NCBI GenBank assembly: GCA_021842405.1
Contig: JAKBZR010000030.1
Span: 1-34,578 of the forward strand
Origin: a bacterium
GTDB taxonomy: Bacteria; Armatimonadota; Chthonomonadetes; Chthonomonadales; JAMCWF01
DNA length: 34,578 nt
Direction of reading: 5' to 3'
The notes below the pieces were generated by a model that saw only the letters and a list, made by a program, of their open reading frames with translations, was not told where the DNA came from and searched no databases. Shown here piece by piece: positions 1,711 to 29,778 of this stretch (position 1 is its first letter; each line of letters starts with the position of its first letter). The translations under genes were made by a program, and so were the position numbers.

Positions 1711-2525
1711 GTAGAAATCTTCTGTGCTACGCAATAGATATAAGGCGATGTAAAGCGATTGGGTCGAAAAAGCCAGGGTAATTTGTCTTCAAAAACCCAG
1801 CATAGTTTAGTTAATCTAACAATTGATTTGTGGAGGAATGGATATAACAATTGGTTACGGTATCTATCATAAACTAAAACTCCAAGATTTAAAAATAAAA
1901 AATACCTGCAATCAATGATATTAAATCCGTTTTCTTTATGGGATCTGATTAAATCCACATTACTCATGGGTACATGAATGTCATAAACCTCACGATCCAA
2001 TCTTTTTTGCAGCCATCCCGGCAGCCCTTTGAGATTTGGTATATTGGTTATGAGGACGCCGCCCGGTTTCAGGAAATTCTTTATTGAGGCTAGCGCTGAA
2101 TCAGTGTTCTTAAAATGCTCCAGCACGCCGAAGGATATCACATAATCATACGCGCCGATACACCTTTCGGGTGGGTCGAATAGGTCAGCCTGAATGATAT
2201 CCCCTTTGATTTTTTCTCTCTCCAATATTCTTCTTGCTGAATCGCAACCGATTTCTGAATAATCCAATCCGGAAACTTGCATGCCGAACTGGCTAGCGAA
2301 GTAGGGGAGCCATACAGAGCGCGCGCAACCAATTTCCAATAACCTTTTCCCGCTAGTGGCATCTCTGCCAAATACAGACACCAGGTAATGGTGAGTTCGC
2401 CAGTTCACGTAATTATCCCAAAATGCTGTCACCTCCCTTTTTTCAGGATACAATGGGCGTGGTAGAGAAGTGGTATCCCATAGGCGATCCCAATAAGTTT
2501 TTCCAGCCTTGTCATTGTCGTGCAC
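1707..2525 (-). CDS. Class I SAM-dependent methyltransferase
   Basis: A 272-residue protein with a Methyltransf_11/23-like core. Motif I is RLLEIGCARSVWLPYFAS, followed by VSGLDYSEIG (motif II), GDIIQADLFDP and YDYVISFGVLEHFKN (motif IV), then LKPGGVLITNIPN (motif V). Motif I has Cys-Ala-Arg where Gly-x-Gly is usual, so the SAM loop is slightly degenerate, but the rest is intact. It overlaps the flippase gene by 14 bases and the glycosyltransferase by 4 bases, so it is cotranscribed with them. A role in modifying the surface polymer or its lipid carrier is inferred from context. The gene is AT-rich relative to the flanking export genes. Confidence 0.88.
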   Translation of the reverse strand: MHDNDKAGKTYWDRLWDTTSLPRPLYPEKREVTAFWDNYVNWRTHHYLVSVFGRDATSGKRLLEIGCARSVWLPYFASQFGMQVSGLDYSEIGCDSARRILEREKIKGDIIQADLFDPPERCIGAYDYVISFGVLEHFKNTDSALASIKNFLKPGGVLITNIPNLKGLPGWLQKRLDREVYDIHVPMSNVDLIRSHKENGFNIIDCRYFLFLNLGVLVYDRYRNQLLYPFLHKSIVRLTKLCWVFEDKLPWLFRPNRFTSPYIYCVAQKIST

Positions 2526-3942: not shown

Positions 3943-4877
3943 TCCGCATACTTTTTCAGCCCCTCCTCAATGGAGGTGCGCGGCCGGTAGCCCAGCAGGG
4001 ATGCCGCCTTGCTCACATCGGCATAGGTGATCTCCACGTCGCCCGGCTGCATCGGCTGGTGAATGAGGTTCGGCTCAAGTTCCAGCGTCTTGTAGATCGT
4101 CTCAACCAGATAACTCAGCGAAACCGTCTTTGAGTTTCCCAGGTTGATGATCTCGAAACCCAGGCCGCCCACCCGGTCCAACACGGCAGTCACACCATCA
4201 ATTATATCCTCAATGTAGGTGTAGTCGCGCTGGGTGGCGCCGTCGCCGAAAATCTCGATCGGCTCACCCTTCATCGCCCGCCGGCAGAATTTCGAGATCG
4301 CCATATCGGGGCGCTGTCTCGGCCCATAGACAGTAAAAAACCGCAGGCAGGCGATATGCATCCCATAGAGATGATGAAACACACCGGCGACCAGCTCGCC
4401 GGCTCGTTTGCTGGCGGCGTAGGGCGAGATGGGCAGGTTGACCGGATCCTCCTCACTGAATGGGACTTTGGTATTGGCGCCGTATACCGAAGAGGACGAG
4501 GCCAGCACCAATTGGTTGACGCCGGCTATCCGAGCCGACTGTAAAATATTGGTGAGCCCCTCCACATTCACGCGCTGGTAACCGGCCGGGTCCTCCAGTG
4601 AGGGTCGCACCCCAGCCTTGGCCGCCAAGTGGACGATTTTATCCGGCTTCAATTTATTGAATAGGTTGCCAAGGTTTTCCGCATCCAAAATATCGCCCCG
4701 AACCAGCATAAACCTATCCTCTGATAGCGACCTTTGAAGATTGGCTTCCTTCAGAGCCACATCATAATAGGGATCGAAGTTATCGTAGCCGATGACCCGG
4801 TCTCCCTGCTGCAGCAACCGCTCACAGAGGTGCGAGCCGATGAAGCCGGCCGCACCCGTAACGAATATGGTGGAAAT
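3900..4877 (-). CDS. NAD-dependent sugar-nucleotide epimerase/dehydratase (UDP-glucuronate 4-epimerase-like)
   Basis: An extended short-chain dehydrogenase. The NAD-binding Rossmann motif TGAAGFIGSH is encoded at about 4859-4830. The catalytic Ser and YxxxK follow as LASSSSVYG and YAASKRAGE, then LRFFTVYGPRQRPDMAI, typical of UDP-glucuronate/UDP-galactose 4-epimerases of capsule loci. An ORF restricted to ATG, GTG or TTG would begin only at 4817 and would lose the NAD motif, which cannot be right. The frame stays open upstream, and a strong Shine-Dalgarno AAAGGAG (4893-4887) lies 9 bases before an in-frame ATT at 4877. That gives (M)STIFVTGAAGFIGSH, a textbook N-terminus, so I place the start at this non-standard AUU codon. 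The likely product is a UDP-sugar precursor for the polymer. Confidence 0.85.
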   Translation of the reverse strand: MSTIFVTGAAGFIGSHLCERLLQQGDRVIGYDNFDPYYDVALKEANLQRSLSEDRFMLVRGDILDAENLGNLFNKLKPDKIVHLAAKAGVRPSLEDPAGYQRVNVEGLTNILQSARIAGVNQLVLASSSSVYGANTKVPFSEEDPVNLPISPYAASKRAGELVAGVFHHLYGMHIACLRFFTVYGPRQRPDMAISKFCRRAMKGEPIEIFGDGATQRDYTYIEDIIDGVTAVLDRVGGLGFEIINLGNSKTVSLSYLVETIYKTLELEPNLIHQPMQPGDVEITYADVSKAASLLGYRPRTSIEEGLKKYAEWLRKSPPMIGRIR

Positions 4878-16132: not shown

Positions 16133-18025
16133 CTACTGGATGTTGGGATTTGCCGCTTTTCCGCCGGACTGCAAGTGAGCGACCGCGATCTTCATTTCGA
16201 CTCCTTTACCCACCAAGGTTAAGCGGTCTCCCAAACGAAGCAGGGTCTCGCCGTTTGGCAGCAGCCGCTGTTGGCTGCGGGTTATGGTGATGACCAGGAT
16301 GCCGGGGGGCAGACCGGCCATCCGCAGCGGGCGATCGTGCAGGGTTGCATTTAATAGCACCGCTTCACGCAGCTCACCTACCTGGTTTCCGGCTTCGATC
16401 AGCTCCAGCATGCGGGGCGCCCGAACCGCGATTTCTAGCAGGGCGAGGGCGGCGCCGGCGTGCTGAATCACGTAAATACCGACGTCTGAGAGTGACTTGC
16501 CCGCCCGCATATCCTCAAGGCAGGTGACCACATTCAACGCCTCGAAATGGGAGCGGGCGTGATTCGCCCAATGGACGTTGGCGTCCTTTTCCTCGAAGAG
16601 GATCACAACGGTTTCCGCTCCAGTCGCCCCGGCCTGATGGAGAGCGGATGATGGATCGGCGGCGGCCGGAATCACTGAAACCGTTTCCGGGAACGTCTGC
16701 TCGCTCAGCCGACCCGAAGCAACCAGCATTACCCGCTTGTTCGCATCAGCCATCCGGCGAGCTAAAAGCCCGGCCAGCTCGGTGTCACCGGCGATAATGA
16801 CGCCGCCCCCTTCGCCTACGCGCATTTCAACCAACCGATTGAAGACGATCGGACCAATCAAGCAAGTAACGATCGCCATCAGTATAAAAGCGGCTACCGT
16901 GGCGGAGTTGAGTATCCCAAGTCGCAGGCCGATGTTGGATGCCGCAACGGTAAGGCTAAGCTGGGTGGAGATCAAGAAACCACCCGCTATTGTTTGCCGC
17001 CATGAGAATCGAAAACGATATAACAACGCCGGAATCAGCTTGGATAGAAAAGCAACCCCCAGAATCGGGAAAAAGATCAGCCAGGTATCATGAGATCGGA
17101 CGGCCGCTACGAGGTCGAACTGAGCGCCGAACATAATGAAAAAAATCGGCACAAAAAATCCGTAACCTATGGCATCCAGCTTGTGATGCAGGAGCTCACG
17201 CTCTTCGCTCGATATCAAGGATATGATCGTGCCAGCCAGAAACGCCCCGACAATGCTGGTTACGCCCGTTTGGTGGGCCAAAGCGAGAAATATCAGAATT
17301 AGGGTCAATGAGGCACGGATATCGAACTGGTTCGAAGCGGTATTCACCAACCTGCGGATTAGCGGCTGTTGGTTGAGCAGTGCACTGGCATGATAGAGCA
17401 CCAGGAACGCAATGGAGAAAAGAAGTAAGAATACCAGATCAATGGTTTTACCGCTGTGCAGCGCCAGGTAAACGGCAAGGAGTATCATCGTGCCAAAATC
17501 GGCGATTGAGGTGTAGCCCAGCAGCATCTGGCCAAAGGCCGTTCCGACCAGCCCCCTTTCCTTCAACACCGGCAGCACCACCCCAACCGAGCAAGTCGCC
17601 AGGATCAGCCCGGAGAGCCAAAACGAGGATAGGAGCCGGTAGCGAACCATCAAGTAGGTGGATCCCAGCGCACCGGCGAGGGTCAGCGCGAATATCATGC
17701 TATTCAGCATCGCCGGGCTTGCGAACCACCGGCGCCACGGCCGCCGGCCGTCTTGATTCGAGCGCGGCAGCATTCCCATGATGTCCAGCTCCAGGCCGCA
17801 TAAAAACATCAGGTAAGCAAGCCCGAAATCGGAGAGGAAGTCCAGCACCGGATCCGGGTTGGAAAGCAAGCCGAAACCGCTTTTCCCAAAGATGATGCCG
17901 GCGATCAACTCTCCAAGCGCGACCGGAAGGCGTATCTTATTGAAGTAGGTCGTAAAGATCGGTACGATGAATGCCAGCAGCGCAACAAGCAACAAAGATA
18001 AGTAGACGGGTGAAGTGTGGTGCAA
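16133..18025 (-). CDS. CPA2 (Kef-type) cation/proton antiporter with RCK-like C-terminal domain
   Basis: 630 residues. The first ~400 form a Na+/H+ exchanger-type membrane domain of about 12 helices: RLPVALGELIAGIIFGKSG, DFGLAYLMFLCGLELD, GVVLPVLKERGLVGTAFGQM and GAFLAGTIISLISS. A cytosolic part follows, with a TrkA-N-like Rossmann domain (GGGVIIAGDTELAGLLARRMADANKRVMLV) and a TrkA-C-like end (RLLPNGETLLRLGDRLTLVG). The nucleotide-binding loop is AGDTELA, not the usual GxGxxG, so ligand binding may be lost or altered. The start is a TTG at 18025 with AGGAG nine bases upstream. It lies on the same strand as, and 297 bases beyond, the Ehr operon, so cotranscription is possible but not shown. 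The transported ion is unknown. Confidence 0.88.
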   Translation of the reverse strand: MHHTSPVYLSLLLVALLAFIVPIFTTYFNKIRLPVALGELIAGIIFGKSGFGLLSNPDPVLDFLSDFGLAYLMFLCGLELDIMGMLPRSNQDGRRPWRRWFASPAMLNSMIFALTLAGALGSTYLMVRYRLLSSFWLSGLILATCSVGVVLPVLKERGLVGTAFGQMLLGYTSIADFGTMILLAVYLALHSGKTIDLVFLLLFSIAFLVLYHASALLNQQPLIRRLVNTASNQFDIRASLTLILIFLALAHQTGVTSIVGAFLAGTIISLISSEERELLHHKLDAIGYGFFVPIFFIMFGAQFDLVAAVRSHDTWLIFFPILGVAFLSKLIPALLYRFRFSWRQTIAGGFLISTQLSLTVAASNIGLRLGILNSATVAAFILMAIVTCLIGPIVFNRLVEMRVGEGGGVIIAGDTELAGLLARRMADANKRVMLVASGRLSEQTFPETVSVIPAAADPSSALHQAGATGAETVVILFEEKDANVHWANHARSHFEALNVVTCLEDMRAGKSLSDVGIYVIQHAGAALALLEIAVRAPRMLELIEAGNQVGELREAVLLNATLHDRPLRMAGLPPGILVITITRSQQRLLPNGETLLRLGDRLTLVGKGVEMKIAVAHLQSGGKAANPNIQ

Positions 18026-18322: not shown

Positions 18323-20449
18323 TTATCCAAACGAGGCAATGACCAGTAACAGTAAAAGCGCCAGCAACACATAACCCGCGTAAGCATTGACGCGGCCGTT
18401 GTGCATTCGTGCCAAGCCATCCGAAATCCATGCGGTCGCGGCCGACACCGGGTTCAACACGAGGCGGTCTATCAAGTAGACTTCATCGCGGCGACGCCTA
18501 ATTGCGATCCGGAAGTATTCGGTAAGGGTTTCACGGTGCTCCACAACTTGGGGCCTCAGTATCGCTTCAAAAATCACCCGGACCGGTTGGGCGAAGCCGG
18601 TCGCGGTGTAGGTCATCTCCGGCAGCAGATCCCTTACTCCGCCATCCCATTGCCGGCGACGCTCAACTTTACGGCGGCGGGAAACCACCAGCGCGACCAC
18701 CCCGCCGCTCACCGCAAGCAAGAATAATAACATAATAAACATGTATGAAGTGGACATCGCAAAAACGACCGGATTTGCCGTTCCTCCACGGTGAAGCACG
18801 ACCAGGCCCGGACCCGGTATCACGTTGCGGCCGATTTGAGCGCCCAGATTGTGAAACTGGGCAACAAAATCGGAGGGCAAACGACTGCCAGTCTCATTTG
18901 GCGTAAAGAAGTTCGGTACCAGTGCGCCGGTTCCGCTCGCGCCGGTAATCGGTACAACCACACGATCCAGCATCGGTATCACAGTGGTCGGCAATACTCC
19001 CAGCAGCAGACAGACCGCCGCGAGAAATACCATTGGGGTGAGCACCGCTTTGGAGGCATCGTGGGCACGGCTTATCGCTTCTGAACGGGCTATACCGAGG
19101 AATCCCATCGCGAAAGCCCGCACAAAACAGGTTACCGCCAGGCCGGCCGTGAGTGCCAGCCCCACACCTGCTGTTACAAATGCGATCTTAATGCTGAAGG
19201 AGGATAATACCACACTGCGCAATAGAGCTTGAAGGGTCAGCCATTCGCTCACAAAGCCATTGAAAGGCGGCATCGCGGAGATAGAAAGCACCGCGACCAA
19301 AACAAAAAGGCCGGTGTAGGGCATTCGCTTCAATAAGCCGCCCAGACGGTCAAGACTCCGGGTTCCGGCTGCGCCTTCAACCGCCCCGCTTCCCATAAAG
19401 AGCAGAGTTTTAAAAACCGAGTGATTGAGCAGGTGATAGAGGGCAGCCACGAAAGCCATTGCGGCCAGGGTATGGTGGCCGGTTGCCAAAAAGATGAACC
19501 CGGCGCCCAAGGCGGTGGTGATGATCCCGGCGTTTTCAATTGAGCTATGGGCCAGTAAGGTCTTCAGGTCATCCTCGATCGTCGCGTAAAGAATGCCGAT
19601 CAGCGCAGTGGCCGAACCGATAATCAGCACCATCACCCCGGCGCCGATAGGAGGATGGGGCAACAGGCCGGCGTTGATCCGAATGATGCCGTAAAGTCCC
19701 AAATTGAGAGTTGCGCCGGCGATCAACGGTATGGCTGGAGAGGGGGCGTTCGTATAGGCGCGAGGCAGCCAAAAGTTGAAGGGTATCAGCCCTGCTTTTA
19801 TCCCGAATCCAAAAAAGGAGAGTAAAAACACGGTCCATCGCAGTCCGATTCCGAGGTTGGAACCATTTGACTTGAGCGCGCTGAAGGTGAGACTGCCATG
19901 ATCACCCGACATCAACAGAAGGGCGATCAACACTGAAAGCGTGCCCAGTTCACCGATTGCCAGCATCAAATAGGCCGAGCGCTCGCGCTCACTACTGGTA
20001 ATTATCAGGTAAACGATGATTGACATTGATTCCCAGGCAATGAGAAATAGATAGATATCGGCTGCGATGATGACGAGGGGTATTGCGATCAGCAGAGCCA
20101 GATAGAGCGCCGATAACGCCTTTGGATGGCGGATGGGGTGGGTTTGCAACTGACCGGCCGCGAAAATGGACGACGGCAATGCAACCAATGCGGTGACGAT
20201 GAGAAAAAAACCGGCCAGATGGTCTGCTGTGATGGTTATGGTTCCGGCGTTGAAAATGGACCATAATGCGGCACGGAATGAATGAGCGCGGAATAGGGCA
20301 TCGAAGCCGGCCGGCAACAACGCGAGAGAGCCGGCCACCCCAAAGCCAGCCAGCATGGACCGGCACATTTTGCTTGGAACGGTTAAAACGGCGGCGATTC
20401 CCAACCCGTAAAGCACAAAACCGATCAGCAGCCAGAGCCCGATGCCCAT
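18323..20449 (-). CDS. HyfB/NuoL-like antiporter subunit of an Ehr-type complex
   Basis: 708 residues, a proton-pumping NuoL/M/N-type subunit of the HyfB class. It has about 14-16 membrane helices. The conserved channel residues are visible: Glu in FLIAWESMSIIVYLI, Lys in GFGIKAGLIPFNFWLPRAY, TLLAHSSIENAG, and AALYHLLNHSVFKTLLFM with His/Lys. A C-terminal tail near residues 590-650 (WDGGVRDLLPEMTYTATGF) is typical of HyfB/HycC proteins. The ATG at 20449 overlaps the upstream stop by one base and has GGAGG nine bases upstream; a GTG at 20452 is also possible. It is the last gene of the six-gene operon and should form one of two ion-translocating arms. Confidence 0.92.
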   Translation of the reverse strand: MGIGLWLLIGFVLYGLGIAAVLTVPSKMCRSMLAGFGVAGSLALLPAGFDALFRAHSFRAALWSIFNAGTITITADHLAGFFLIVTALVALPSSIFAAGQLQTHPIRHPKALSALYLALLIAIPLVIIAADIYLFLIAWESMSIIVYLIITSSERERSAYLMLAIGELGTLSVLIALLLMSGDHGSLTFSALKSNGSNLGIGLRWTVFLLSFFGFGIKAGLIPFNFWLPRAYTNAPSPAIPLIAGATLNLGLYGIIRINAGLLPHPPIGAGVMVLIIGSATALIGILYATIEDDLKTLLAHSSIENAGIITTALGAGFIFLATGHHTLAAMAFVAALYHLLNHSVFKTLLFMGSGAVEGAAGTRSLDRLGGLLKRMPYTGLFVLVAVLSISAMPPFNGFVSEWLTLQALLRSVVLSSFSIKIAFVTAGVGLALTAGLAVTCFVRAFAMGFLGIARSEAISRAHDASKAVLTPMVFLAAVCLLLGVLPTTVIPMLDRVVVPITGASGTGALVPNFFTPNETGSRLPSDFVAQFHNLGAQIGRNVIPGPGLVVLHRGGTANPVVFAMSTSYMFIMLLFLLAVSGGVVALVVSRRRKVERRRQWDGGVRDLLPEMTYTATGFAQPVRVIFEAILRPQVVEHRETLTEYFRIAIRRRRDEVYLIDRLVLNPVSAATAWISDGLARMHNGRVNAYAGYVLLALLLLLVIASFG

Positions 20450-21204
20450 CACCGCACGCCTCCTTCCACCGGATTAGCGGGTTCAATGAATTGGTGTGGC
20501 TCACTGCGTCCGGCCAAGACCAGTAAACCGTGCAAGATGGCTAGCGGGGGCGGCGGGCAGCCCGGCACTTCAACGTCAACCGGAATTAGATCGGAAACGC
20601 CGGAACCGACGATGAATCCGGAGCGAAAGACCCCTCCGCTCAGGGCGCACACGCCGACCGCCATGACCCTTTTCGGATCAGGCATCGCCTCATAAGCCTT
20701 CAGCAACGGAATTTTCATGTGGTCGGCCACCGGTCCGATGACCAGCAAAACATCGGCTTGGCGTGGAGTCGGCGTAATGAAAAAACCAAGCCGGTGCATA
20801 TTGTAATAGGGGTTGTTGAGGAGCTTCACCTCATTAAGGCAAGCCCCGCAGTCACCCGCATCAATAACGCGAATGTGCAGTGAGCGTCGAAAGGAGGGTG
20901 GGAAAACCGAGGCTTCACTCATTAAGGAAGCCCATTCAAATCCGCTATCCCATGGAAACGGCTCGCCCGCATTTCGCACACAACGAAAGCAATGGATGCA
21001 TCGCCGCTGATCCACCTTTATAGGTCCATCGGTCGGTTGGAGAGCATCGGTCGGGCAGCGCGATGCTATCGTGTTGTTGTCATCCTGTACTTCAGCGCCC
21101 GCATCCGGCAAACCGGGCGAAATGCCTGCCGCCTCATCTCTTCCTTTCGGATAGGGCGTGGTCACCACGCCGGTCCGCAATCCCTTTTCAATCCATTTGT
21201 TCAT
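20449..21204 (-). CDS. Fused ferredoxin-NuoB (HyfH-HyfI-like) small subunit of an Ehr-type complex
   Basis: About 251 residues joining two electron-transfer modules. The N-terminal part is a reduced ferredoxin with an ASRCPTDAL half-site followed by CIHCFRC. These are exactly the four Cys of one [4Fe-4S] cluster; the other four ligands of a normal two-cluster HyfH are gone. The C-terminal part is NuoB/HyfI-like with CGACLNE, then GVCALSGG and VPGCPPPPLAILHGL, the four ligands of the proximal cluster N2. In hydrogenase-4 and complex I these are separate proteins. I prefer the ATG at 21204; a TTG at 21228, directly abutting the upstream stop, is the longer choice. It would pass electrons between the NuoD-like subunit and an unknown partner. 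Confidence 0.9.
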   Translation of the reverse strand: MNKWIEKGLRTGVVTTPYPKGRDEAAGISPGLPDAGAEVQDDNNTIASRCPTDALQPTDGPIKVDQRRCIHCFRCVRNAGEPFPWDSGFEWASLMSEASVFPPSFRRSLHIRVIDAGDCGACLNEVKLLNNPYYNMHRLGFFITPTPRQADVLLVIGPVADHMKIPLLKAYEAMPDPKRVMAVGVCALSGGVFRSGFIVGSGVSDLIPVDVEVPGCPPPPLAILHGLLVLAGRSEPHQFIEPANPVEGGVR

Positions 21205-21228
21205 AACCACTTTTCCATTACCTCGCAA

Positions 21229-22809
21229 TCAGCGATCGTTTTCAGACACCGAAAGCCCAAAGGTGGCTAAAACGATGGGGAAATCTTGAAAGGCGAAACT
21301 TTCAACCGCCAAGTGCAGCCCATGCCAATTGGCAAACGAAGGGGTGATCGGCCGGTAGCGGGCGATTTTCCCATCTTCAGCGACACGCACCCAGTGCCAA
21401 GTTGCACCTCGTGGCGTTTCGACGCCGGCTACCGCCGCGCCGGGAGATACCGAATACGGGTTGGAAACCGGTCCCGTAGGCATGTTTTCGGTAACCTGAT
21501 CCATAATGCGCAGCGACTGGTTCACTTCTGCGAAAAGCAGCCGGAGTCGGGCGTAGCCGTCACCCTCTTGCTCGCAAGGAATCTCAAAGTCATATTGATC
21601 GTAAAGCAGATAGGGCTGCGCTCTCCGCAGGTCGTTGCAATAGCTCGAGCCCCTGGCCACCGGACCGACCAGCTCGTAGTCGCGAGCCTGGCTTTCGGTG
21701 ATAATGCCGACCTCTTCAATTCGATCCAGGAAGCTGCTGCTGGCGGTCAATGCCTGATCGAGATCGTTGAGCCGTTGCACGATCCCTTTTAATTTGTTAA
21801 CCGCTTGACAACACCTATCGGTATCTAAATCGCAGCTCAGACCGCCTGGCACAACCAAGCCGAACAGGTAGCGATGGCCGGCAAGCTCGCACGCCAGCCG
21901 CAATGCGTCTTCTTCCAAAATAGCGGCTTGACTGGCCGCCACCGCCAGGCCGGTCGAGTTGCAAATGGATTCAATCACGCCGATATGATGCCGGCAGCGC
22001 TCCAATTCGGCAAAGAAGACCCTCAGCGCCACGGCTCGCTCAGGCACGACGGTTGGACCTATTTTCTCAACCGCCATGCAAAAGGCGAGCGCGTGCGAGA
22101 AGGCGGTGGTCCCCGCGAATCGCTCAGCCAGCAGGAGCGCCTCATCAACGCTTTGACCCTCGGCGATCTTTTCCACTCCGCGGTATTTGAAAAAAAGCCG
22201 AGGGAATACGCGGATCACCTCCTCACCGACGGTTTCCAAATGGAAATGAACCGACTCCGCATCCCCGGAGTAGACCGGGCCGACCGGCATAATAAAGGAG
22301 CCAGGCGCCCTCACGATCCTTCTCGGCCGCCAATCCCGTTTCGGCTTGTGATTTTCCAGTGCCGCGCCGATGTTAAACCCCGCCCGCATAGGCTCAACGC
22401 CCTCCTGCCACACATCATCGTGTAGAATGAAGTCGCCCAGGCGGGGATGTCCTTCGAACACCAGGCCAAAGAGATCCTCGGCCTCTCGTTCGTACCAGTC
22501 AGCCGCGTGGATCGTGCGGCTGATGCTCTGAAACGACTTTTGATCGAGCGGGCCGCCGGTTTTTACCAGAATTCGGACAGCCACTCCCTCCTCATAGAAA
22601 AGGTAATGGATATCCCACCGGTTCGACCTCTCTTCGACGATCATGCCGGCAAAATGGTATATCTTTTGATGGTGGAGCCAGTTGCAAAATTCGTTCATTC
22701 TATCCGGCTTGCAATGGAACTCGGCCTCTTGTGGGGAGATGTTGAACGCCGCTTCCAGCGCATCCTCCCAGATCACTTTCGCTTGTGCGATCAGCTCGTC
22801 TATCCTCAT
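21229..22809 (-). CDS. HyfG/HycE-like large subunit (NuoC-NuoD fusion) lacking Ni ligands: Ehr-type
   Basis: 526 residues. An N-terminal NuoC-like domain (about 1-150, ending RTIHAADWYEREAEDLFGL) is fused to a NuoD-like domain, as in HycE and HyfG. In [NiFe]-hydrogenases the L1 motif reads RICGxC; here it reads RFAGTTAFSH, so both Cys are replaced. The C-terminal L2 motif DPCxxC is replaced by QDFPIVLATFGLS. With all four Ni-Fe ligands gone it cannot be a hydrogenase. This is the defining feature of Ehr complexes, evolutionary intermediates between group 4 hydrogenases and complex I. Starts at 22809 with GAGGGG eight bases upstream and a 4-base gap to the preceding gene. The redox substrate is unknown. 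Confidence 0.92.
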   Translation of the reverse strand: MRIDELIAQAKVIWEDALEAAFNISPQEAEFHCKPDRMNEFCNWLHHQKIYHFAGMIVEERSNRWDIHYLFYEEGVAVRILVKTGGPLDQKSFQSISRTIHAADWYEREAEDLFGLVFEGHPRLGDFILHDDVWQEGVEPMRAGFNIGAALENHKPKRDWRPRRIVRAPGSFIMPVGPVYSGDAESVHFHLETVGEEVIRVFPRLFFKYRGVEKIAEGQSVDEALLLAERFAGTTAFSHALAFCMAVEKIGPTVVPERAVALRVFFAELERCRHHIGVIESICNSTGLAVAASQAAILEEDALRLACELAGHRYLFGLVVPGGLSCDLDTDRCCQAVNKLKGIVQRLNDLDQALTASSSFLDRIEEVGIITESQARDYELVGPVARGSSYCNDLRRAQPYLLYDQYDFEIPCEQEGDGYARLRLLFAEVNQSLRIMDQVTENMPTGPVSNPYSVSPGAAVAGVETPRGATWHWVRVAEDGKIARYRPITPSFANWHGLHLAVESFAFQDFPIVLATFGLSVSENDR

Positions 22810-22813
22810 CGAA

Positions 22814-24268
22814 TCAACCCCTCATCGAGATTGCGGCCAGCACGATCAGTTTATGCAGAGGATTCGAAATGAAAATCCCCAATACGATGACCGGTACCGC
22901 CGCGATGACCAGCGTGATTTTGCAGCTTGTGGGAAGCGATCGGCACTTCATTTCGCTGGGCTTGGTCGCTTCACTGGCCCCAAAAACCATCCGGCTGACG
23001 TGATTCAGGATGGCGAAAAATGCAATTGAAATAAAGATTGCGAGCAACCCTACCGCCAGATATTCACCTCGTCCCAGACCGGCTTTCAAGATGGAGAACT
23101 CGCTGAGGAAAAGGGTAAACGGCGGAGCTCCGGCGATGGCAAAACCACCCAGCAGCAGCGCCGTTCCGGCAATCGGTGCCCGCCGAATCAACCCCCTGAT
23201 TGAGGCGATATCCCGTGTGCCCAAGAGCAGTAGCACAGTGCCCGCTGAATAAAAGCAAAATGATTTGGTGACGGCGTGACCCACGATTTGCAAAATAGCA
23301 GCCAGATGGGCCGACATCCCTCCCAATCCAACCGCGGTGAGGATGATCCCCATGTGCTCCACAGTTGAGAAGGCGAATAGGCGCTTGGTGTCGCGCACAT
23401 TGAGCAGCAAAAAGGCGGCCGTGCCCGCCGAAATGAGGCCGAACACCAGCACCCAGCTTCCGGCGTGCGTCACCGGTGAAGCCTGCAAAATGGTCAGCAC
23501 TCGAAGTATCGCATAGAGCACCGCGGTCGTTTCGACGCCGGAGAGCAGCGCGCAGACCGGTGTCGGCGCTTGACTGTGGGCGTCCGGTAGCCATGTATGC
23601 ATGGGCACCAGCCCAACCTTGGCACCGAGGCCAACCAGGATGAAGATGAAAGCCGCCTTCAAAAGTACCGGCGACATCTTCGGTGCCGCGGCAACCAGCC
23701 CCGACCAAGTATAGGGTTGAACGGCGCCGGCCTGCCGGGCCGCCCAAAAGAGGAGCAGGAAGCCCAGCAGCGCAATCGCTGCCCCCATTAGTGTGAGCAC
23801 GATGTACTTCCAAGCCGCCTCCAGCGCCTCGTGACTATTTTCAAAGCCGACCAACAGGACCGAAAAGAGGGTTGTAAGCTCCACCGCAATCCAAACGATG
23901 TTCGGCTCTTGCAGCATGGGTACGATCAGCATTGAAAAGACAAACAGGTTGTAGTTCAAGTAGTATCGAAGGCCGCTGCCGGACTGTTTGAAGTCCATAT
24001 ATCCCAGTGAGAAGATGGCGGCGGTAACGTTCACAAAGGCGACAAGCGATAGGATGATCGCCCCCAGCGAATCCAGCTCGATCCAATGGGATATCTCAAT
24101 AAGAACGTGGTGAGGTGACGTGATAACGCAGTGATCCGCCCAAGCCGATAGTGCCAGCGCTGCCAGCGCCCCAACCAAGGTGATGATCGCCCCGGCCGGA
24201 GATCGGCGGATTATGGCGCACAGCGCGGCGGCTGCCAATGGAATTACAATGATGGCGGTTAAAATCAC
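22814..24268 (-). CDS. HyfF/NuoN-like antiporter subunit of an Ehr-type complex
   Basis: 484 residues, the second NuoL/M/N-type membrane subunit. Key parts: a Glu in VWIAVELTTLFSVLLVGFE, the channel Lys in LVGLGAKVGLVPMHTWLPD, the discontinuous helix region PTPVCALLSGVETTAVLYA, and AFSTVEHMGIILTAVGLG. Together with the HyfB-like subunit it gives the complex two antiporter-type modules. The start is a GTG at 24268 with GGAGG ten bases upstream, located across the end of the HyfE-like gene (4-base gap). Confidence 0.92.
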   Translation of the reverse strand: MILTAIIVIPLAAAALCAIIRRSPAGAIITLVGALAALALSAWADHCVITSPHHVLIEISHWIELDSLGAIILSLVAFVNVTAAIFSLGYMDFKQSGSGLRYYLNYNLFVFSMLIVPMLQEPNIVWIAVELTTLFSVLLVGFENSHEALEAAWKYIVLTLMGAAIALLGFLLLFWAARQAGAVQPYTWSGLVAAAPKMSPVLLKAAFIFILVGLGAKVGLVPMHTWLPDAHSQAPTPVCALLSGVETTAVLYAILRVLTILQASPVTHAGSWVLVFGLISAGTAAFLLLNVRDTKRLFAFSTVEHMGIILTAVGLGGMSAHLAAILQIVGHAVTKSFCFYSAGTVLLLLGTRDIASIRGLIRRAPIAGTALLLGGFAIAGAPPFTLFLSEFSILKAGLGRGEYLAVGLLAIFISIAFFAILNHVSRMVFGASEATKPSEMKCRSLPTSCKITLVIAAVPVIVLGIFISNPLHKLIVLAAISMRG

Positions 24269-24272
24269 CGGT

Positions 24273-25007
24273 TTATTTCCTCCCGGAAGGGCGAGCGGCC
24301 GCTGCCTCGATGTGGGGAGAGGCCGTCTCCTTTATCTGGGTAAGTCGGCCTACTGCGGTAGTGCCGATCTTTTCGTGTACGGTTCGGGTCAGCACCCCCA
24401 TTACGAAGGTCAAGATGAGAATGTCAAAGGCTAGCGCCAGTTCTGCAATGAGCGGTAAATTGGGAGCGACGGCGACGCCGGCAAAGAAGGCGCTGTTTTC
24501 CATCGCCAGTATTCCCAGCAATTGCGGTACTGCCTCGCGCCGGGTGGTGAGCGTATAGGCGCCGATTAAAAGACCGGCCAGCCCGATCGGCAAATTGATG
24601 AGAAGGGCTCCTCCAGCCGCCGCCGCGTTTAGCCACGGACGACTCAGCCAGTATGCCGCCAGCGTCAGCATGAGTGCGATGATCAAAGAAGAGGGTATGC
24701 TGACCGCCTGCGTTATTTCTCGCCGCGTGTAGACCTCCTCCCGCACCAATTTTCGAAGTAGCCACGGCAGTAATCCCACCTTTGTGATGAGATTGATGGC
24801 TCCAACCGCCAAAAGATGGGGTGAGTAGGGTTGGATGCCCATCAAAACGGCGGAGGCGGCCAAGCAAATGGACTGGAAAATGAAGTATCGCAGACAATCA
24901 CCCACCTGACGGGTCGCTACTATACCGAACGAAGCAACCAGAAAGAGGCCGCCGGCCAGCGCGTTTAAGTTGGTGATGAGGGGTGTCAAGTTTTGTAAAA
25001 GGGTCAT
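24273..25007 (-). CDS. HyfE-like membrane subunit of an Ehr-type complex
   Basis: A small membrane protein (244 residues) with about seven helices. NLITKVGLLPWLLRKLVREE and LGILAMENSAFFAGVAVAPN match HyfE, the counterpart of NuoK in hydrogenase-4-type complexes, including the buried Glu in AMENS. The ATG at 25007 is preceded by TGAGGAT at a 7-base spacing, so I reject the longer start at 25034 that overlaps the HyfC-like gene. A low-complexity Ala/Arg tail ends the protein. Confidence 0.9.
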   Translation of the reverse strand: MTLLQNLTPLITNLNALAGGLFLVASFGIVATRQVGDCLRYFIFQSICLAASAVLMGIQPYSPHLLAVGAINLITKVGLLPWLLRKLVREEVYTRREITQAVSIPSSLIIALMLTLAAYWLSRPWLNAAAAGGALLINLPIGLAGLLIGAYTLTTRREAVPQLLGILAMENSAFFAGVAVAPNLPLIAELALAFDILILTFVMGVLTRTVHEKIGTTAVGRLTQIKETASPHIEAAAARPSGRK

Positions 25008-25017
25008 CGGGCAATCC

Positions 25018-25968
25018 TCAATGTGCAAAGGCACTGGTAATCATGGCAACAACCGCAATAACGAAAGCGGCGCTCATAAATTCACTGATGCGAAACAATC
25101 TCAATTTCGCCAGCGAGGACTCCACCGCAACCAGAAACAGGATGAAGATTAGCATTTTAAGGAGCACCAGCGGGATGGCAAGCAAGACGGCGCTGATTCG
25201 GGTGGTTGCGGCAAGCCCCCAGGGGGTGAGCAGCACGTTTAAAAAGACGATCATCAATACGAAGAACTTCATCCAGCCGCCCCACTTCATCAGGGCGGCG
25301 CCCCGCCCCGAGTACTCCAGCTCTTTCGACTCTTCAATCATGGAGAGCTCGAAATGGCCGGAGGGGTTATCAACCGGTATTCGTCCTTTTTCAGCCAGTA
25401 TCAGCATAATAAATGCGATGAGCAGCAGGATGTGGGAAGGGGTAAAGAAATTGGCGGCTGGCGTCACCCACTTTTGTTGGACGATGAAGGGGATGGTTGA
25501 ATTGGCGACAAAGGATACCGTAAAAAAAACGACCAGGAAGATCGGTTCGGCCAGAAAACCGACCATTCTGGTTCGGCTTGCGCCCATCGCCCCGTAGGGA
25601 TTGCCGGTGTCTATGGCGGCGAGTGCTGCGAAAAAGCCGGCCAGTGCCAGTACGAAACCGGCTCCCACCATATCGGCCATGAAAGCCCAAAAGAGCGGAT
25701 AGTTGGTCAGAACCGGTATCAGCAGCGTCACAAAGATGGGCGCTACAAATACGATATAGGGAGTGACCCTGAAAATCCAGGTGCTCTCATCCGATACGAT
25801 TTCATCTTTCGAAAACAGTTTTCGCAGGTCTCGGTAGGGTTGGAAGATGCTGGGTCCGCGCTTTGACTGCACGATCTCCTTCATGCGGTTCAGCACCCCG
25901 ATCGCCAGCGGCGAAAACCCCATCACCACCAGCACCTGAATCAGGTTATATAGAATGCTGACGCTCAT
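25018..25968 (-). CDS. HyfC/NuoH-like membrane subunit of an Ehr-type complex
   Basis: 316 residues with about eight helices. It carries KSKRGPSIFQPYRDLRKLF-type loop 1 residues (QSKRGPSIFQPYRDLRKLFS) and the acidic loop EKGRIPVDNPSGHFELSMIEE, which corresponds to the quinone-chamber loop of NuoH. It anchors the peripheral arm to the membrane arm. The ATG at 25968 has AGGAG five bases upstream and is the first gene of the six-gene operon. It follows a 260-base leader that contains the fluoride riboswitch. Confidence 0.93.
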   Translation of the reverse strand: MSVSILYNLIQVLVVMGFSPLAIGVLNRMKEIVQSKRGPSIFQPYRDLRKLFSKDEIVSDESTWIFRVTPYIVFVAPIFVTLLIPVLTNYPLFWAFMADMVGAGFVLALAGFFAALAAIDTGNPYGAMGASRTRMVGFLAEPIFLVVFFTVSFVANSTIPFIVQQKWVTPAANFFTPSHILLLIAFIMLILAEKGRIPVDNPSGHFELSMIEESKELEYSGRGAALMKWGGWMKFFVLMIVFLNVLLTPWGLAATTRISAVLLAIPLVLLKMLIFILFLVAVESSLAKLRLFRISEFMSAAFVIAVVAMITSAFAH

Positions 25969-26122
25969 GGTTGCTCCTGGAGGCAAAGATCGGGCGACGA
26001 AGGAAGCTTGTCGTGAGGGAGGCGTTGGGCGTCAATCGGATGCTCCCCATCGGTAAATCGGGTGCTGGAAAGAGGTTTTCCGGATCGCGCGATGGGCGGT
26101 GAAATGAGACGATATGATTCAT
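25946..26122 (-). CDS. Possible 58-residue leader ORF upstream of the HyfC-like gene
   Basis: An ATG at 26122 opens a 58-codon frame that ends at 25946, overlapping the start of the HyfC-like gene by 23 bases. GGAGGA (26139-26134) lies 11 bases upstream, slightly far but strong. The peptide, starting MNHIVSFHRPSRDPE, is polar and resembles no family I know. It may be a leader peptide coupling translation to the first Ehr gene, or chance. Confidence 0.3.
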   Translation of the reverse strand: MNHIVSFHRPSRDPENLFPAPDLPMGSIRLTPNASLTTSFLRRPIFASRSNHERQHSI

Positions 26123-26195
26123 TGAGTTTGGAATCCTCCACTTAAATAATCTCCCCGTGATGATCGTGCATGCCTGCAGCGCAGGTGCAACCCCC

Positions 26196-26232
26196 CCTAC
26201 CGTTTCAAAGGCAAGTTAGCCGTCACGGTAGG
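26196..26232 (-). promoter_or_regulatory. Expression-platform hairpin of the fluoride riboswitch
   Basis: CCTACCGT (26232-26225 on the minus strand) can pair with ACGGTAGG (26203-26196). Its left arm overlaps the last bases of the aptamer pseudoknot strand (GACTCC, 26236-26231), so the stem and the ligand-bound pseudoknot compete. A G-run, not a T-run, follows, so the output may be Rho-dependent or a longer refolding and not a simple terminator. Confidence 0.55.
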
Positions 26233-26273
26233 AGTCATCAGCCTGGGCGATTACTACGGGGGACTCCATCCCC
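26228..26273 (-). ncRNA. Fluoride riboswitch aptamer (crcB motif)
   Basis: Read on the minus strand, GGGGATGGAGTCCCCC (26273-26258) matches the 5' half of the crcB motif: stem P1 GGGG/CCCC flanks AUG and the pseudoknot strand GGAGTC. Downstream GGCTGATGACTCCTAC (26243-26228) matches the 3' half GGCUGAUG-[pseudoknot]-UAC. The pseudoknot strands GGAGTC (26267-26262) and GACTCC (26236-26231) pair perfectly over six bases. The layout parallels the Thermotoga petrophila aptamer. The P3 hairpin is short (GCCCAGGC). These RNAs bind fluoride and raise expression of downstream genes. The next genes on this strand encode the Ehr complex, and from memory formate-hydrogenlyase-like operons are among recorded crcB-motif neighbours. 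Confidence 0.85.
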
Positions 26274-26285
26274 ATTGGTGTAAAC

Positions 26286-26315
26286 AGTATACCCAACCGG
26301 TTGGCGGCAATGCAA
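26286..26315 (-). promoter_or_regulatory. Promoter of the riboswitch-Ehr operon, with palindrome in the spacer
   Basis: TTGCAT (26315-26310), 18 bases, then TATACT (26291-26286) on the minus strand. Transcription would start about 26280, immediately before the aptamer, which supports both calls. The spacer holds a perfect 12-bp palindrome CCAACCGGTTGG (26293-26304), a possible repressor or MerR-type operator. Confidence 0.6.
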
Positions 26316-26351: not shown

Positions 26352-26538
26352 GACCCCCACCCCATCCCTCCCCGCAAGCGGGGAGGGCGCCGACCATCTC
26401 CCCCCGCTTGCGGGGGGGATCAAGGGGGGGTGCTACATCCACGCCGTCGCCGAGAAGCTCAACCGCCGCTGGATCGCCTGCGACCTGGGCCGCTTCGCCA
26501 TCCACACTCCCCGCTTGCGGGGGGGATCAAGGGGGGGG
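26352..26538 (+). repeat. Repeat cassette A: hairpin element, methylase fragment, half element
   Basis: A GC-rich double-hairpin element (26352-26430; stems CCCTCCCCGCAAGCGGGGAG and CCCCCCGCTTGCGGGGGG, then GATCAAGGGGGGG) is followed by a piece of DNA-methylase coding sequence (26443-26507). That piece would encode VAEKLNRRWIACDLGRFAIH. A second half element (26508-26538) follows. An almost identical block (cassette B) lies inside the intein at 28581-28768. The methylase piece has no start or stop of its own. Confidence 0.88.
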
Positions 26539-26748
26539 TGACGGCAGGCAGGAGCAGTGAGGTTAGGATAATTACCCAACTTAAGCATCGCATTGAGACC
26601 GTAATCGGACTTGCTCCTAAACTGAAGGTTGAGCAGCGATAAAAGCTGGTTAGGTATATCGTTGTGATGCTCGAAACCTCATGCCTGAGCAGGAATTCCC
26701 CGCTTCTCCGCCGAATGCTACCAAGTAAAAGCGTAATAAGGACACCTT
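26539..26748 (+). other. Leader of the restriction-modification island
   Basis: About 210 bases between cassette A and the Mod start. A run of codons here (ITQLKHRIETVIGLAPKLK) may be a gene remnant, but it has no own start and no family match that I know. AAGGA at about 26737-26741 serves as the ribosome binding site for Mod. No clear promoter was found. Confidence 0.4.
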
Positions 26749-29700
26749 ATGACCGAGATTATCTGGGAAGGCAAGTACGATAAGGATGGCCGAAAGACGG
26801 CGCCGCTGCGGGTGGCGCTGCCGTTTCAAACGGTGGAAACGGTCAACGAGAGCGCCCAGGAGCGGCAGAAGTCGCTCGATTTCTTTGCCCAGGGCCGCAA
26901 CCCCGAATGGCGCAACCGCCTGATCTGGGGCGACAAAAAGTACGTGCTGCCCTCCCTGCTAACGGAGTTCGCCGGCAAGGTGAACCTGATCTATATTGAC
27001 CCGCCCTTCGCCACCGGCGCCGACTTCTCCTACACCGCCACCGTGCCCGATGCGCCCGAAACCGGCGATGGCGGCGCCAGCTTTGTAAAAGAGGCGAGCG
27101 TCATCGAGCAAAAGGCTTACCGGGATACCTGGGGCCGGGGGCTGGATTCTTATCTGGAGTGGTTTTATGAAACGGTGGTGTTTCTGCGGGAGCTACTGGC
27201 GGAAAATGGAAGCATTTATGTGCATTTAGATTATCATATTGCTCACTATGCGAAGGTAGTCATGGATGAGTTCTTTGGAGAACAACAGTTCCTGAATCAT
27301 ATAATTTGGAGTTATCGTAGATGGCCATCTGTATCACAGAACTTCCAAACAATGCATGATGACCTTTTGGTATATGCTAAAAATCGTACTTCGGAACGCA
27401 CTTTCAATATAGAATACGAACAACCGTCAGAAAGTTATATCAAACGATTCAAAGGTAAAACACAGGTTCTAGATCCGGAAACCAAGACTCGAAAAATTAC
27501 GGTTGAAGAACCGACTAAAGGCCTTCCACTCAGGGATGTATGGGACATTTCAATAATTGCCGGCTTCAAGTCGGAACGTGTAAGCTACCCTACCCAAAAA
27601 CCCGAAGCCCTGCTTGAGCGTATCATCAAAGCCTCCTCGAATGAGGGCGACCTGGTGCTGGATTGCTTCTGCGTGAGAAAAGGCACAAAGGTACTGACCC
27701 CCCTTAATCCCCCCGTAAACGGGGGGAGAACTCCCTCCCCGTTTACGGGGAGGGTTGGGGTGGGGTCCACTCCTGATATGCCAGCGGGAGCGCCTGCTGG
27801 GGCATCTCAACGGGTTGGGGAGGGGTCTACTCCTGATATGCCAGCGGGAGCGCCTGCTGGGGCATCTCAACGGGTTGGGGAGGGGTCTACTCCTGATATG
27901 CCAGCGGGAGCGCCTGCTGGGGTATCTCAACGGGTTGGGGTGGGGTCTACTCCAATTGAAAATCTTCAGCCGGGAGATTGGGTGCTCACCCACGACGGCC
28001 GATGCCATCGGGTTGTCGGCATCTATCGTCGGCGCTATCGAGGGCGAATGTTAGGCATTCGGCGCGAAGGGAGCGAGCAGCTTCTTTGGGTCACCCCCGA
28101 TCATCGCGTGCTGGCCAATCGCCGCGTGGCCGCACTGAGTGAGAAGGGAGAGTGGCCCGGAGTTCCGGATGATCATTTCAGCCATGCCCGCGGTATGCGT
28201 CGTGGAATGACCCCGCCTGAAAGACGAGTATGGGAATATCTTCGTTCCGATGGCGCAGGAGTGAAATTTCGAAGACAACATCCCATCGGCCCCTACATTG
28301 CCGACTTTTATGCGCGCCAAGCTGGGCTGGTCGTTGAGGTGGATGGAGCAATAGCGCACGAAAACGCAGAGGCGGCCAATTACGATCGGGAGCGCGACGC
28401 TTTTATGCAGGGTCTTGGCCTACAAGTGCTTCGTTTTACGGCGCGCGAGGTGATGGGGAATTGCGATAAAGTCGCAAAAACGATCGCTGCTGCTTGTCTT
28501 GAACGGGTGCTGGAAGATTTACCCGATAAGCAATGGCGATTCGCGGGCAATTTGCAGCCGGGAGACGTCGTTTACGAATTGACCCCCACCCCATCCCTCC
28601 CCGCAAGCGGGGAGGGCGCCAACCATCTCCCCCCCGCTTGCGGGGGGGATCAAGGGGGGGTGCTACATCTGCCGCCGTCGCCGAGAAGCTCAACCGCCGC
28701 TGGATCGCCTGCGACCTGGGCCGCTTCGCCATCCACACCCCCCGCTTGCGGGGGGGATCAAGGGGGGGTGCTACATCCACGCCGTCTAGTAGCCATAGAA
28801 TCCACGGAAACGGATGAAGAAGTCTACGACCTGCAAATAGAGGGATCTCACTCCTATGTGACCGATGTCTGCGCCGTCCACAACTGCGGCTCCGGCACCA
28901 CCGCCGCCGTTGCCGAAAAGCTCAACCGCCGCTGGATCACCTGCGACCTGGGCCGCTTCGCGATCCATACCACCCGCAAGCGGCTGCTCGGCATACCCAA
29001 CGTGCGCCCCTTCGTGGTGCAAAACCTCGGTAAGTACGAGCGGCAACTCTGGCAAAAGGCGGAGTTCGGCGAGCAGGCGGACGCCACCATCCTTGCCTAC
29101 CGCCGCTTCATCCTCGACCTCTATCACGCCCGCCCCCTCAACGGATACGCCTGGCTGCACGGGCTGAAGAATGGAAGGATGGTGCACGTCGGCGCGGTGG
29201 ATAGCCCGGTCAGCGCCGGCGATGTGACCAACATCGCGGTTGAGTTCCGCCGTGCGATGGGTTCCGGCGAGAGCGCCCCTTCCACTACCGGAATTGATGT
29301 ATTGGGCTGGGACTTCGCCTTTGAGCTGAACGAGGTCGCCCGCCAGCAGGCTCAGCGCGCCAAGATCGAGATGCGGTTCCTGCGCATCCCCCGCGAAGTG
29401 CTGGAGAAGCGGGCGGTGGAGCAGGGCGACATTCGCTTTTTCGAGTTGGCGGCGCTCTCGGTGGAACCCGTTATCCAGGGCCGGGCCGTCACCCTGAAGC
29501 TGACCGACTTCGTGATACCGGTGGACGACGTGCCGGCTGATGTGCAGCAGGCGATCACCCATTGGTCGCAATGGATTGACTACTGGGCGGTGGACTGGGA
29601 TAACCGGAGCGATACCTTTCACAATGAATGGCAGTCCTACCGCACCCGCAAGAGCAACGATCTGCAAAAGCAGGTTGCGCACACCTATGAAGCGCCGGGC

Positions 29701-29778
29701 GAGTACACGGTGGTGGTGAAGGTGATTGATATATTGGGCAACGACACCACCAAAGCGCTGAAAGTGAGGGTGGGGTAA
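26749..29778 (+). CDS. mod: Type III-like DNA methyltransferase (Mod) interrupted by an intein
   Basis: 1009 codons. Exteins are residues 1-307 and 713-1009; joined they give 604 residues, normal for Mod subunits. Catalytic motif IV is NLIYIDPPF (D84-PPF87). A target-recognition region follows (about 170-280), then LVLDCF|CGSGTT, the SAM-binding motif I, placed C-terminally as in beta-class enzymes. The bar marks the intein, residues 308-712. The C-terminal end (HTYEAPGEYTVVVKVIDILG) resembles a PKD-like beta-strand pair. The Res partner lies at 31761-34322. It should methylate adenine (DPPF/DPPY class) in a short asymmetric site and also steer Res cleavage. The start at 26749 has AAGGA six to seven bases upstream. 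Without splicing motif I is broken, so activity should require intein removal. Confidence 0.93.
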   Translation: MTEIIWEGKYDKDGRKTAPLRVALPFQTVETVNESAQERQKSLDFFAQGRNPEWRNRLIWGDKKYVLPSLLTEFAGKVNLIYIDPPFATGADFSYTATVPDAPETGDGGASFVKEASVIEQKAYRDTWGRGLDSYLEWFYETVVFLRELLAENGSIYVHLDYHIAHYAKVVMDEFFGEQQFLNHIIWSYRRWPSVSQNFQTMHDDLLVYAKNRTSERTFNIEYEQPSESYIKRFKGKTQVLDPETKTRKITVEEPTKGLPLRDVWDISIIAGFKSERVSYPTQKPEALLERIIKASSNEGDLVLDCFCVRKGTKVLTPLNPPVNGGRTPSPFTGRVGVGSTPDMPAGAPAGASQRVGEGSTPDMPAGAPAGASQRVGEGSTPDMPAGAPAGVSQRVGVGSTPIENLQPGDWVLTHDGRCHRVVGIYRRRYRGRMLGIRREGSEQLLWVTPDHRVLANRRVAALSEKGEWPGVPDDHFSHARGMRRGMTPPERRVWEYLRSDGAGVKFRRQHPIGPYIADFYARQAGLVVEVDGAIAHENAEAANYDRERDAFMQGLGLQVLRFTAREVMGNCDKVAKTIAAACLERVLEDLPDKQWRFAGNLQPGDVVYELTPTPSLPASGEGANHLPPACGGDQGGVLHLPPSPRSSTAAGSPATWAASPSTPPACGGDQGGVLHPRRLVAIESTETDEEVYDLQIEGSHSYVTDVCAVHNCGSGTTAAVAEKLNRRWITCDLGRFAIHTTRKRLLGIPNVRPFVVQNLGKYERQLWQKAEFGEQADATILAYRRFILDLYHARPLNGYAWLHGLKNGRMVHVGAVDSPVSAGDVTNIAVEFRRAMGSGESAPSTTGIDVLGWDFAFELNEVARQQAQRAKIEMRFLRIPREVLEKRAVEQGDIRFFELAALSVEPVIQGRAVTLKLTDFVIPVDDVPADVQQAITHWSQWIDYWAVDWDNRSDTFHNEWQSYRTRKSNDLQKQVAHTYEAPGEYTVVVKVIDILGNDTTKALKVRVG
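27210..27590 (+). other. AT-rich target-recognition segment of Mod
   Basis: This part of Mod is clearly richer in A/T and in AT-ending codons than the sequence on both sides, while motif IV before and motif I after are GC-rich. It encodes the region between the catalytic motifs (NHIIWSYRRWPSVSQNFQT onward), where target recognition lies in this class. This looks like a domain swapped in by recombination. Confidence 0.6.
27698..27767 (-). repeat. Hairpin element inserted in intein loop, inverted orientation
   Basis: This is the reverse complement of the element at 26352-26430 with TAAA/TTTA in place of CAAG/CTTG in the stem centres: CCCCCCGTAAACGGGGGG and CCCTCCCCGTTTACGGGG. It sits in frame between the first strand of the intein (KVLTP) and PIENLQPGD, where a turn of a few residues is normal. 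Confidence 0.85.
27771..27950 (+). repeat. Three tandem 60-bp repeats inside the intein
   Basis: Units at 27771-27830, 27831-27890 and 27891-27950; the first two are identical and the third has two substitutions. Each contains an imperfect palindrome (ATGCCAGCGG...TGGGGCAT) and keeps the frame, encoding a 20-residue unit built on STPDMPAGAPAGASQRVGEG. Because the length is a multiple of three, copy-number change would not break Mod. Confidence 0.95.
28581..28768 (+). repeat. Repeat cassette B inside the intein
   Basis: Nearly identical to cassette A (26352-26538): full hairpin element 28581-28660, methylase fragment 28671-28736, half element 28737-28768. It lies in frame, but the methylase fragment is read in a different phase here (SSTAAGSPATWAASPSTP). 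It occupies a loop between GDVVYEL and block F. Confidence 0.9.

Follow-up and report, generated by a model that had tools for sequence, protein, structure and literature searches.

The window analysed here is a 34,578-nucleotide stretch of contig JAKBZR010000030.1 from a bacterium of the Armatimonadota. Its minus strand carries six intact, closely packed genes for a group 4 hydrogenase-like complex, in the order HyfC-E-F-G-I-B, together with a leader about 250 nt long and a downstream antiporter gene:

26286..26315, minus strand: possible promoter, weak, TTGCAT-N18-TATACT, read from the sequence
26222..26282, minus strand: fluoride riboswitch aptamer (RF01734), from an Rfam match and pseudoknot covariation across related leaders
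26194..26234 (approximate), minus strand: competing hairpin, formed with the 3' strand of the pseudoknot and without a U-tract, from RNA folding
25018..25968, minus strand: HyfC/NuoH-like membrane subunit (Pfam NADHdh, E=1.8e-30)
24273..25034, minus strand: HyfE-like membrane subunit (NCBIfam hydrogenase 4 membrane subunit, E=2e-16)
22814..24268, minus strand: HyfF-like antiporter subunit (Pfam Proton_antipo_M; K217, H331, K335 and E390 kept)
21229..22809, minus strand: HyfG-like large subunit (30 kDa plus 49 kDa), lacking both the Ni cysteines and the loop histidine
20449..21228, minus strand: HyfI-like small subunit, ferredoxin-fused, from a domain match and residues
18323..20452, minus strand: HyfB-like antiporter subunit, last gene of the operon (E141, K219, H344, K348 and E403 kept)
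16133..18025, minus strand: CPA2-type monovalent cation/H+ antiporter with TrkA domains (Pfam Na_H_Exchanger, E=3.6e-57), after a 297-nt gap

An Rfam scan of the whole window matched one family, the fluoride aptamer, which scored 48.6 bits (gathering score 34, E=1.1e-10) over the full length of the model, at 26282-26222 on the minus strand. A preliminary description of this DNA had proposed a crcB-motif fluoride aptamer with a perfect 6-bp pseudoknot, and both were borne out: the six bases GGAGUC and GACUCC pair perfectly, and across 29 aligned aptamers, taken from the CEFGIB operon type and from neighbouring genes, 98.9% of the pseudoknot cells are paired, with both sides varying. Two other proposed elements, a competing stem and a promoter, stand only in part. 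RNA folding does predict a 10-bp hairpin (CUCCUACCGU/ACGGUAGGGG) that overlaps the 3' strand of the pseudoknot, but no U-run lies behind it, so that it is not a textbook terminator; U-runs do follow the expression-platform hairpins of some relatives' leaders. A hairpin that competes for the pseudoknot strand is expected in fluoride riboswitches. The promoter can be read where it had been placed, but it is weak (8 of 12 consensus positions, counted by hand), and a consensus promoter scan gave no match at 26286-26315. Both promoter and terminator are thus less certain in this leader. Repeated C-rich blocks (CCCCCCTTGATCCCCCCCGCAAGCGGGG) lie directly upstream of it, at 26380-26540. The same genome has two further fluoride aptamers, both with U-rich tails: one precedes a dynamin-family gene, and the other, with its U-rich terminator, belongs to a 154-aa ORF without a Pfam match (L004 4704-5168, minus strand).

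The gene content also agrees with what had been proposed: six genes for a relative of group 4 hydrogenases and complex I, no Ni site in HyfG (all four Ni cysteines are absent), and a CPA2-type antiporter after the operon on the same strand. Co-transcription of the antiporter gene with the operon is less certain, and untested. The HyfC reading frame extends to 25986, and an ATG with an AGGAG lies at 25968. HyfI contains both the proximal cluster cysteines (C127, C130, C194 and C224) and a single [4Fe-4S] ferredoxin motif (C58, C77, C80 and C83). Elsewhere in the window, a DNA methylase ORF (26749-29778, plus strand) has Hint, DUF559, and intein C-terminal matches, and resembles a methylase split by an intein with a DUF559 nuclease.

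A HyfG query against about 85,000 species genomes identified seven close relatives (54-63% identity) in the Thermodesulfobacteriota, Campylobacterota, Lentisphaerota, Planctomycetota, and Pseudomonadota. In every one of them a fluoride aptamer lies directly ahead of HyfC (six above the Rfam cut-off, the seventh at 31.2 bits), and in five of these seven genomes the operon's own is the sole fluoride riboswitch found. A HyfC query was run against class- and phylum-wide samples and plasmids, after which 46 loci, as well as plasmid regions, were read. Two gene orders occur among these loci: C-E-F-G-I-B, and an order with HyfB first (BCEFGI). Fluoride aptamers lie upstream of HyfC in all 29 operons of the CEFGIB order, which represent at least six phyla and include plasmid-borne examples, so that crcB RNAs ahead of genes for a Ni-ligand-less HyfG recur well beyond the window; they lie upstream of none of the 41 operons of the HyfB-first order, true Ni enzymes and other Ehr complexes included. 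(Some of the 29 operons, for example L010, L122, L132, and L135, end at a contig edge before HyfB or HyfI, and were classed by their remaining genes.) Scores exceed the Rfam cut-off for 27 of the 29 aptamers; those of L014 (31.2 bits) and L114 (24.5 bits) fall below it. Our own covariance model was trained on part of these aptamers; Rfam was used for positives and our model for negatives. Ten plasmid loci outside the training set divide in the same way, with aptamers at 3/3 of the CEFGIB order and 0/7 of the other. Both orders occur together in two genomes, G337 and G531, each of which obeys the aptamer rule; absence of the aptamer is therefore not merely a matter of hosts that lack riboswitches.

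The aptamer label switches once in a HyfG tree (SH-aLRT 99) and once in a tree from HyfC, HyfF, and HyfG (SH-aLRT 100), in which the 29 operons form one clade. Identity of HyfC is about 60-87% within the window's own subclade, and about 40% to the others. A Fisher value computed on provisional counts (27 and 39) is only descriptive, because related sequences are not independent. Among 291 genomes of the window's own phylum, the window operon is the only clade member found, which points to lateral gain. As for the HyfB genes themselves, two whole copies are present in L008, L114, and L115, whereas in L009 (12338-16744, plus strand) the region is broken into several ORFs, with possible frameshifts, spanning two copies.

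Could the riboswitch stand here by chance, or govern only a short leader transcript? A leader of about 250 nt whose hairpin has no U-run would permit this; 29/29 against 0/41, in one clade that spans many phyla, would not. The count rules out a chance aptamer, and we give the idea as a whole virtually no weight. The link of the CEFGIB operons to fluoride appears as firm as comparison allows, and on that basis we consider it very nearly certain.

What does the complex do? All four Ni cysteines (two CxxC pairs) are missing from every clade member but retained by the true Ni enzymes sampled alongside. The histidine that follows Gly-Pro in the active-site loop is present in 41/41 other group 4 relatives and in 0/27 clade members, and the column of the complex I quinone-site tyrosine is also altered. 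The ferredoxin cysteines of HyfI are invariant (23/23); three of the proximal-cluster cysteines are kept in 23/23 sequences, and the fourth in 19/23. Because the Fe-S cysteines are kept, along with the charged residues of the antiporter subunits, the complex looks able to carry electrons and to move cations, through an active site that looks unlike those of hydrogenase, other Ehr complexes, and complex I; residues alone support this inference. In HyfB, the channel has two clade-typical changes: the TM8 lysine is asparagine (N250) in 25/25 clade sequences, which might impair that channel, and a histidine is replaced by E168. The predicted structure of HyfG (mean pLDDT 62.5, active site below 50) allowed no conclusion.

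Three candidate signatures did not survive comparison. N250 is weakened as a clade marker, since 3/42 sequences outside the clade share it (L200, L202, and L208); the HyfC change from Glu to K234 was dropped as a sign of anion transport, since E. coli HyfC also has lysine there; and the HyfI-ferredoxin fusion is not unique to the clade, since nine outside operons, apparently the Ni enzymes of L149-L158, share its cysteines.

The E. coli Hyc and Hyf systems (formate hydrogenlyase; hydrogenases 3 and 4) share their core subunit families (B, C, E, F, G, and I of Hyf) with the clade, and the formate hydrogenlyase structure 7z0s is the best PDB sequence match for HyfC, HyfG, HyfI, and HyfB. The clade differs in its one-cluster ferredoxin fused to HyfI, its HyfB at the operon end, and its fluoride riboswitch, as well as in the absence of Ni cysteines and of nearby formate dehydrogenase, HycB/HyfA, or Hyp genes: tblastn with E. 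coli proteins, confined to the 29 loci, found no homologue of FdhF, HycB, HyfA, or Hyp. Genes for "formate hydrogen lyase" were listed under crcB RNAs by Weinberg in 2010 (PMC2864571), an association that the preliminary description had also mentioned, and a 2024 review accounts for it by formate oxidation in the course of fermentation (PMC11139923). A conventional formate hydrogenlyase or hydrogenase, switched on for a fermentation shift under fluoride, would fit this published name and the closest solved relative. It would not fit a clade in which no member has the Ni cysteine pair and no FdhF, HycB, or Hyp gene lies nearby; these absences rule out a true formate hydrogenlyase, and the true Ni group 4 enzymes in our set have no riboswitch. 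We therefore hold that reading to be highly improbable, and are confident almost to certainty that this is a dedicated, Ni-free complex. Because the relatives examined are not formate hydrogenlyase, the name is probably a misannotation; the published cases likely belong to this clade, although that is inferred. Text searches of the literature found no paper that calls the complex Ni-free or separate.

Ehr complexes are group 4-like, with antiporter subunits and no Ni ligands, and are thought to link ion translocation to a redox reaction not yet identified (PMC6349859). The clade resembles them in its group 4-like subunits without Ni ligands and its antiporter-like subunits with charged residues kept. 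It differs in its own gene order, in the fluoride aptamer of all its members, and in the loss of the loop histidine (27/27) that all compared Ehr sequences keep. The earlier label "Ehr-type" thus applies in a broad sense only: the clade stands apart from other Ehr complexes (SH-aLRT 99-100), although its nearest sister is not firmly resolved. Its subunits are likewise related to NuoB, C, D, H, K, and L/M/N of complex I, but the quinone-site Tyr and His of subunit D are not conserved, and no NuoF or NuoG homologue was found at the 29 loci (NuoE was not among the queries).

The known fluoride-riboswitch regulon includes Fluc/crcB, CLC-F, eno, ppa, Na+/H+ antiporters, and MutS (PMC11139923, PMC2864571, PMC5533749). 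The aptamer and the neighbouring genes are the same at the clade loci; the regulon lists a multi-subunit complex only as "formate hydrogenlyase". In G655, G564, and G337, HyfB is immediately followed by Fluc (PF02537); in G943, Fluc precedes each of the two operon copies. The G655 order is riboswitch, MutS, MutS, riboswitch, HyfCEFGIB, Fluc, DUF190. In L131, one of the G943 copies, a Na+/H+ exchanger gene lies between riboswitch and HyfC, and in L008 a divergent fluoride riboswitch precedes phosphofructokinase and enolase genes. In the part that was read, plasmids from Burkholderia and Mycobacterium branderi each carry four to five fluoride aptamers, interspersed with MutS, dynamin, pyrophosphatase, HAD, DUF190, usp, and enolase genes. 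In Enterobacter cloacae FRM, genes of several such kinds were shown to be induced by fluoride and to be part of an operon that resistance requires (PMC5533749). Overall, Fluc (6/28), DUF190 (10/28), MutS (6/28), and dynamin (5/28) genes occur at clade loci, and none of them at the 41 controls; the p-values overstate significance, because some of the queries derive from these very loci.

Some of these neighbourhoods merit notice in their own right. The four to five aptamers within 19 kb on each of the plasmids NZ_AP022607.1 (L204), NZ_CP073671.1 (L161), and NZ_CP143553.1 (L205) mark transferable fluoride islands. DUF6062 proteins lie near fluoride-controlled genes (L004 1669-2325, minus strand; L008 5735-6469, plus strand; L136 3251-3997, minus strand). 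Dynamin-family GTPase genes recur in the fluoride islands, several of them directly behind a fluoride aptamer, and no paper was found that brings together at least three of fluoride, dynamin, riboswitch, and DUF190:

L004 (window's own genome, C18) 2425-4332, minus strand: dynamin-family GTPase gene
L008 1-1649: dynamin-family GTPase gene
L010 691-2577: dynamin-family GTPase gene
L133 1-1403: dynamin-family GTPase gene
L161 3734-5839: dynamin-family GTPase gene
L205 3678-5795: dynamin-family GTPase gene

HF leaks into the cell, where fluoride blocks enolase, pyrophosphatase, and ATPase. We propose, with a probability of roughly 55%, that the operon encodes a redox-driven cation pump that supports fluoride export. 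The riboswitch association, the Ni-less site, the kept Fe-S and pump residues, and the linkage to fluoride-resistance genes are shown by comparison of sequences; pumping, its ion, donor, and acceptor, and assembly of the complex are inferred. Binding of Mg-F by the aptamer would let the pseudoknot prevent the competing hairpin, and so permit transcription into HyfC-E-F-G-I-B. The products would assemble in the membrane as a relative of complex I and group 4 hydrogenases. Electrons, most likely of low potential and with ferredoxin as the simplest donor, would pass through the one-cluster ferredoxin-like entry and the proximal [4Fe-4S] cluster to a HyfG site that is neither a Ni site nor the known quinone site, coupled to the HyfC channel and the two antiporter-like subunits, and would drive H+ or Na+ out. 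Such pumping could maintain membrane potential and cytoplasmic pH under fluoride, and supply the export force to Fluc (driven by potential) or CLC-F (driven by protons).

We count in favor of the pump the aptamer distribution, the single clade, the Fluc adjacency, and the kept Fe-S cysteines and antiporter residues. The membrane-energetics role suggested in the preliminary description gains support from two of these, the 29/29 against 0/41 sister operons and the presence of Fluc in or beside several such operons. Counted against the pump are the loss of the loop histidine and the Ni cysteines, the lack of a recognised electron donor nearby, the invariant HyfB TM8 asparagine, the proximal-cluster cysteine replaced in 4/23 sequences, the window hairpin without a U-run, and the exporters themselves: a Fluc match is missing from about half of the genomes, most of which also show no CLC-F signature, so that the exporter to be powered is not found there. 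Fluc matches occur in 9/22 clade genomes, and CLC-F (GREGT and GEVTP) in one more, with CLC-F classed by the signature from PMC11139923. No known exporter was recognised in the remaining clade genomes, which are mostly MAGs with some CLC loci that the motif cannot classify.

These gaps raise the possibility that the complex itself exports fluoride, with electron flow driving F- or HF through an altered membrane arm: a redox-driven primary fluoride pump. At 97% completeness, the window's genome contains three fluoride riboswitches yet no Fluc match, and neither of its two CLC proteins bears the CLC-F signature. Most of the 12 further genomes without Fluc have similar gaps, which direct export, if true, would explain, and the N250 and E168 changes alter the HyfB channel. 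Yet Fluc shares or adjoins the operon in four genomes, where a second exporter would be redundant, and for this reason we hold direct export unlikely. The residues of the cation path are kept, and N250 and K234, found in three operons outside the clade and in E. coli HyfC, respectively, are no mark of fluoride. The genomes are mostly MAGs, some CLC loci remained unclassified, and an exporter of unknown kind may be present.

Somewhat less unlikely, though still doubtful, is a vestigial redox arm: the complex would then be a fluoride-induced, Mrp-like cation/H+ antiporter for pH homeostasis. With the loop histidine and the Ni cysteines gone, the redox reaction could be lost, and no gene for an electron donor was recognised near the operon. 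Other Na+/H+ exchangers are placed with the complex (the window's CPA2 gene, and L131), and such antiporters are the next most common class under the riboswitch after exporters (PMC11139923). A vestige would not be expected, however, to conserve HyfG so strongly, or to keep the ferredoxin cysteines and three of four proximal-cluster cysteines in 23/23 sequences.

"Formate hydrogenlyase" has stood on fluoride-riboswitch gene lists since 2010, and was later explained as fermentation. The operons examined that fit this description all belong to a single clade, whose complex is a different, Ni-free one and travels with fluoride-resistance genes, on plasmids as well. Moreover, the riboswitch provides an inducing signal for studying an Ehr-like complex of unknown reaction, and so makes its redox partner testable. 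If the role of a redox-driven cation pump is true, fluoride tolerance would include a dedicated, powered ion pump, tying the export channels to the energy they need.
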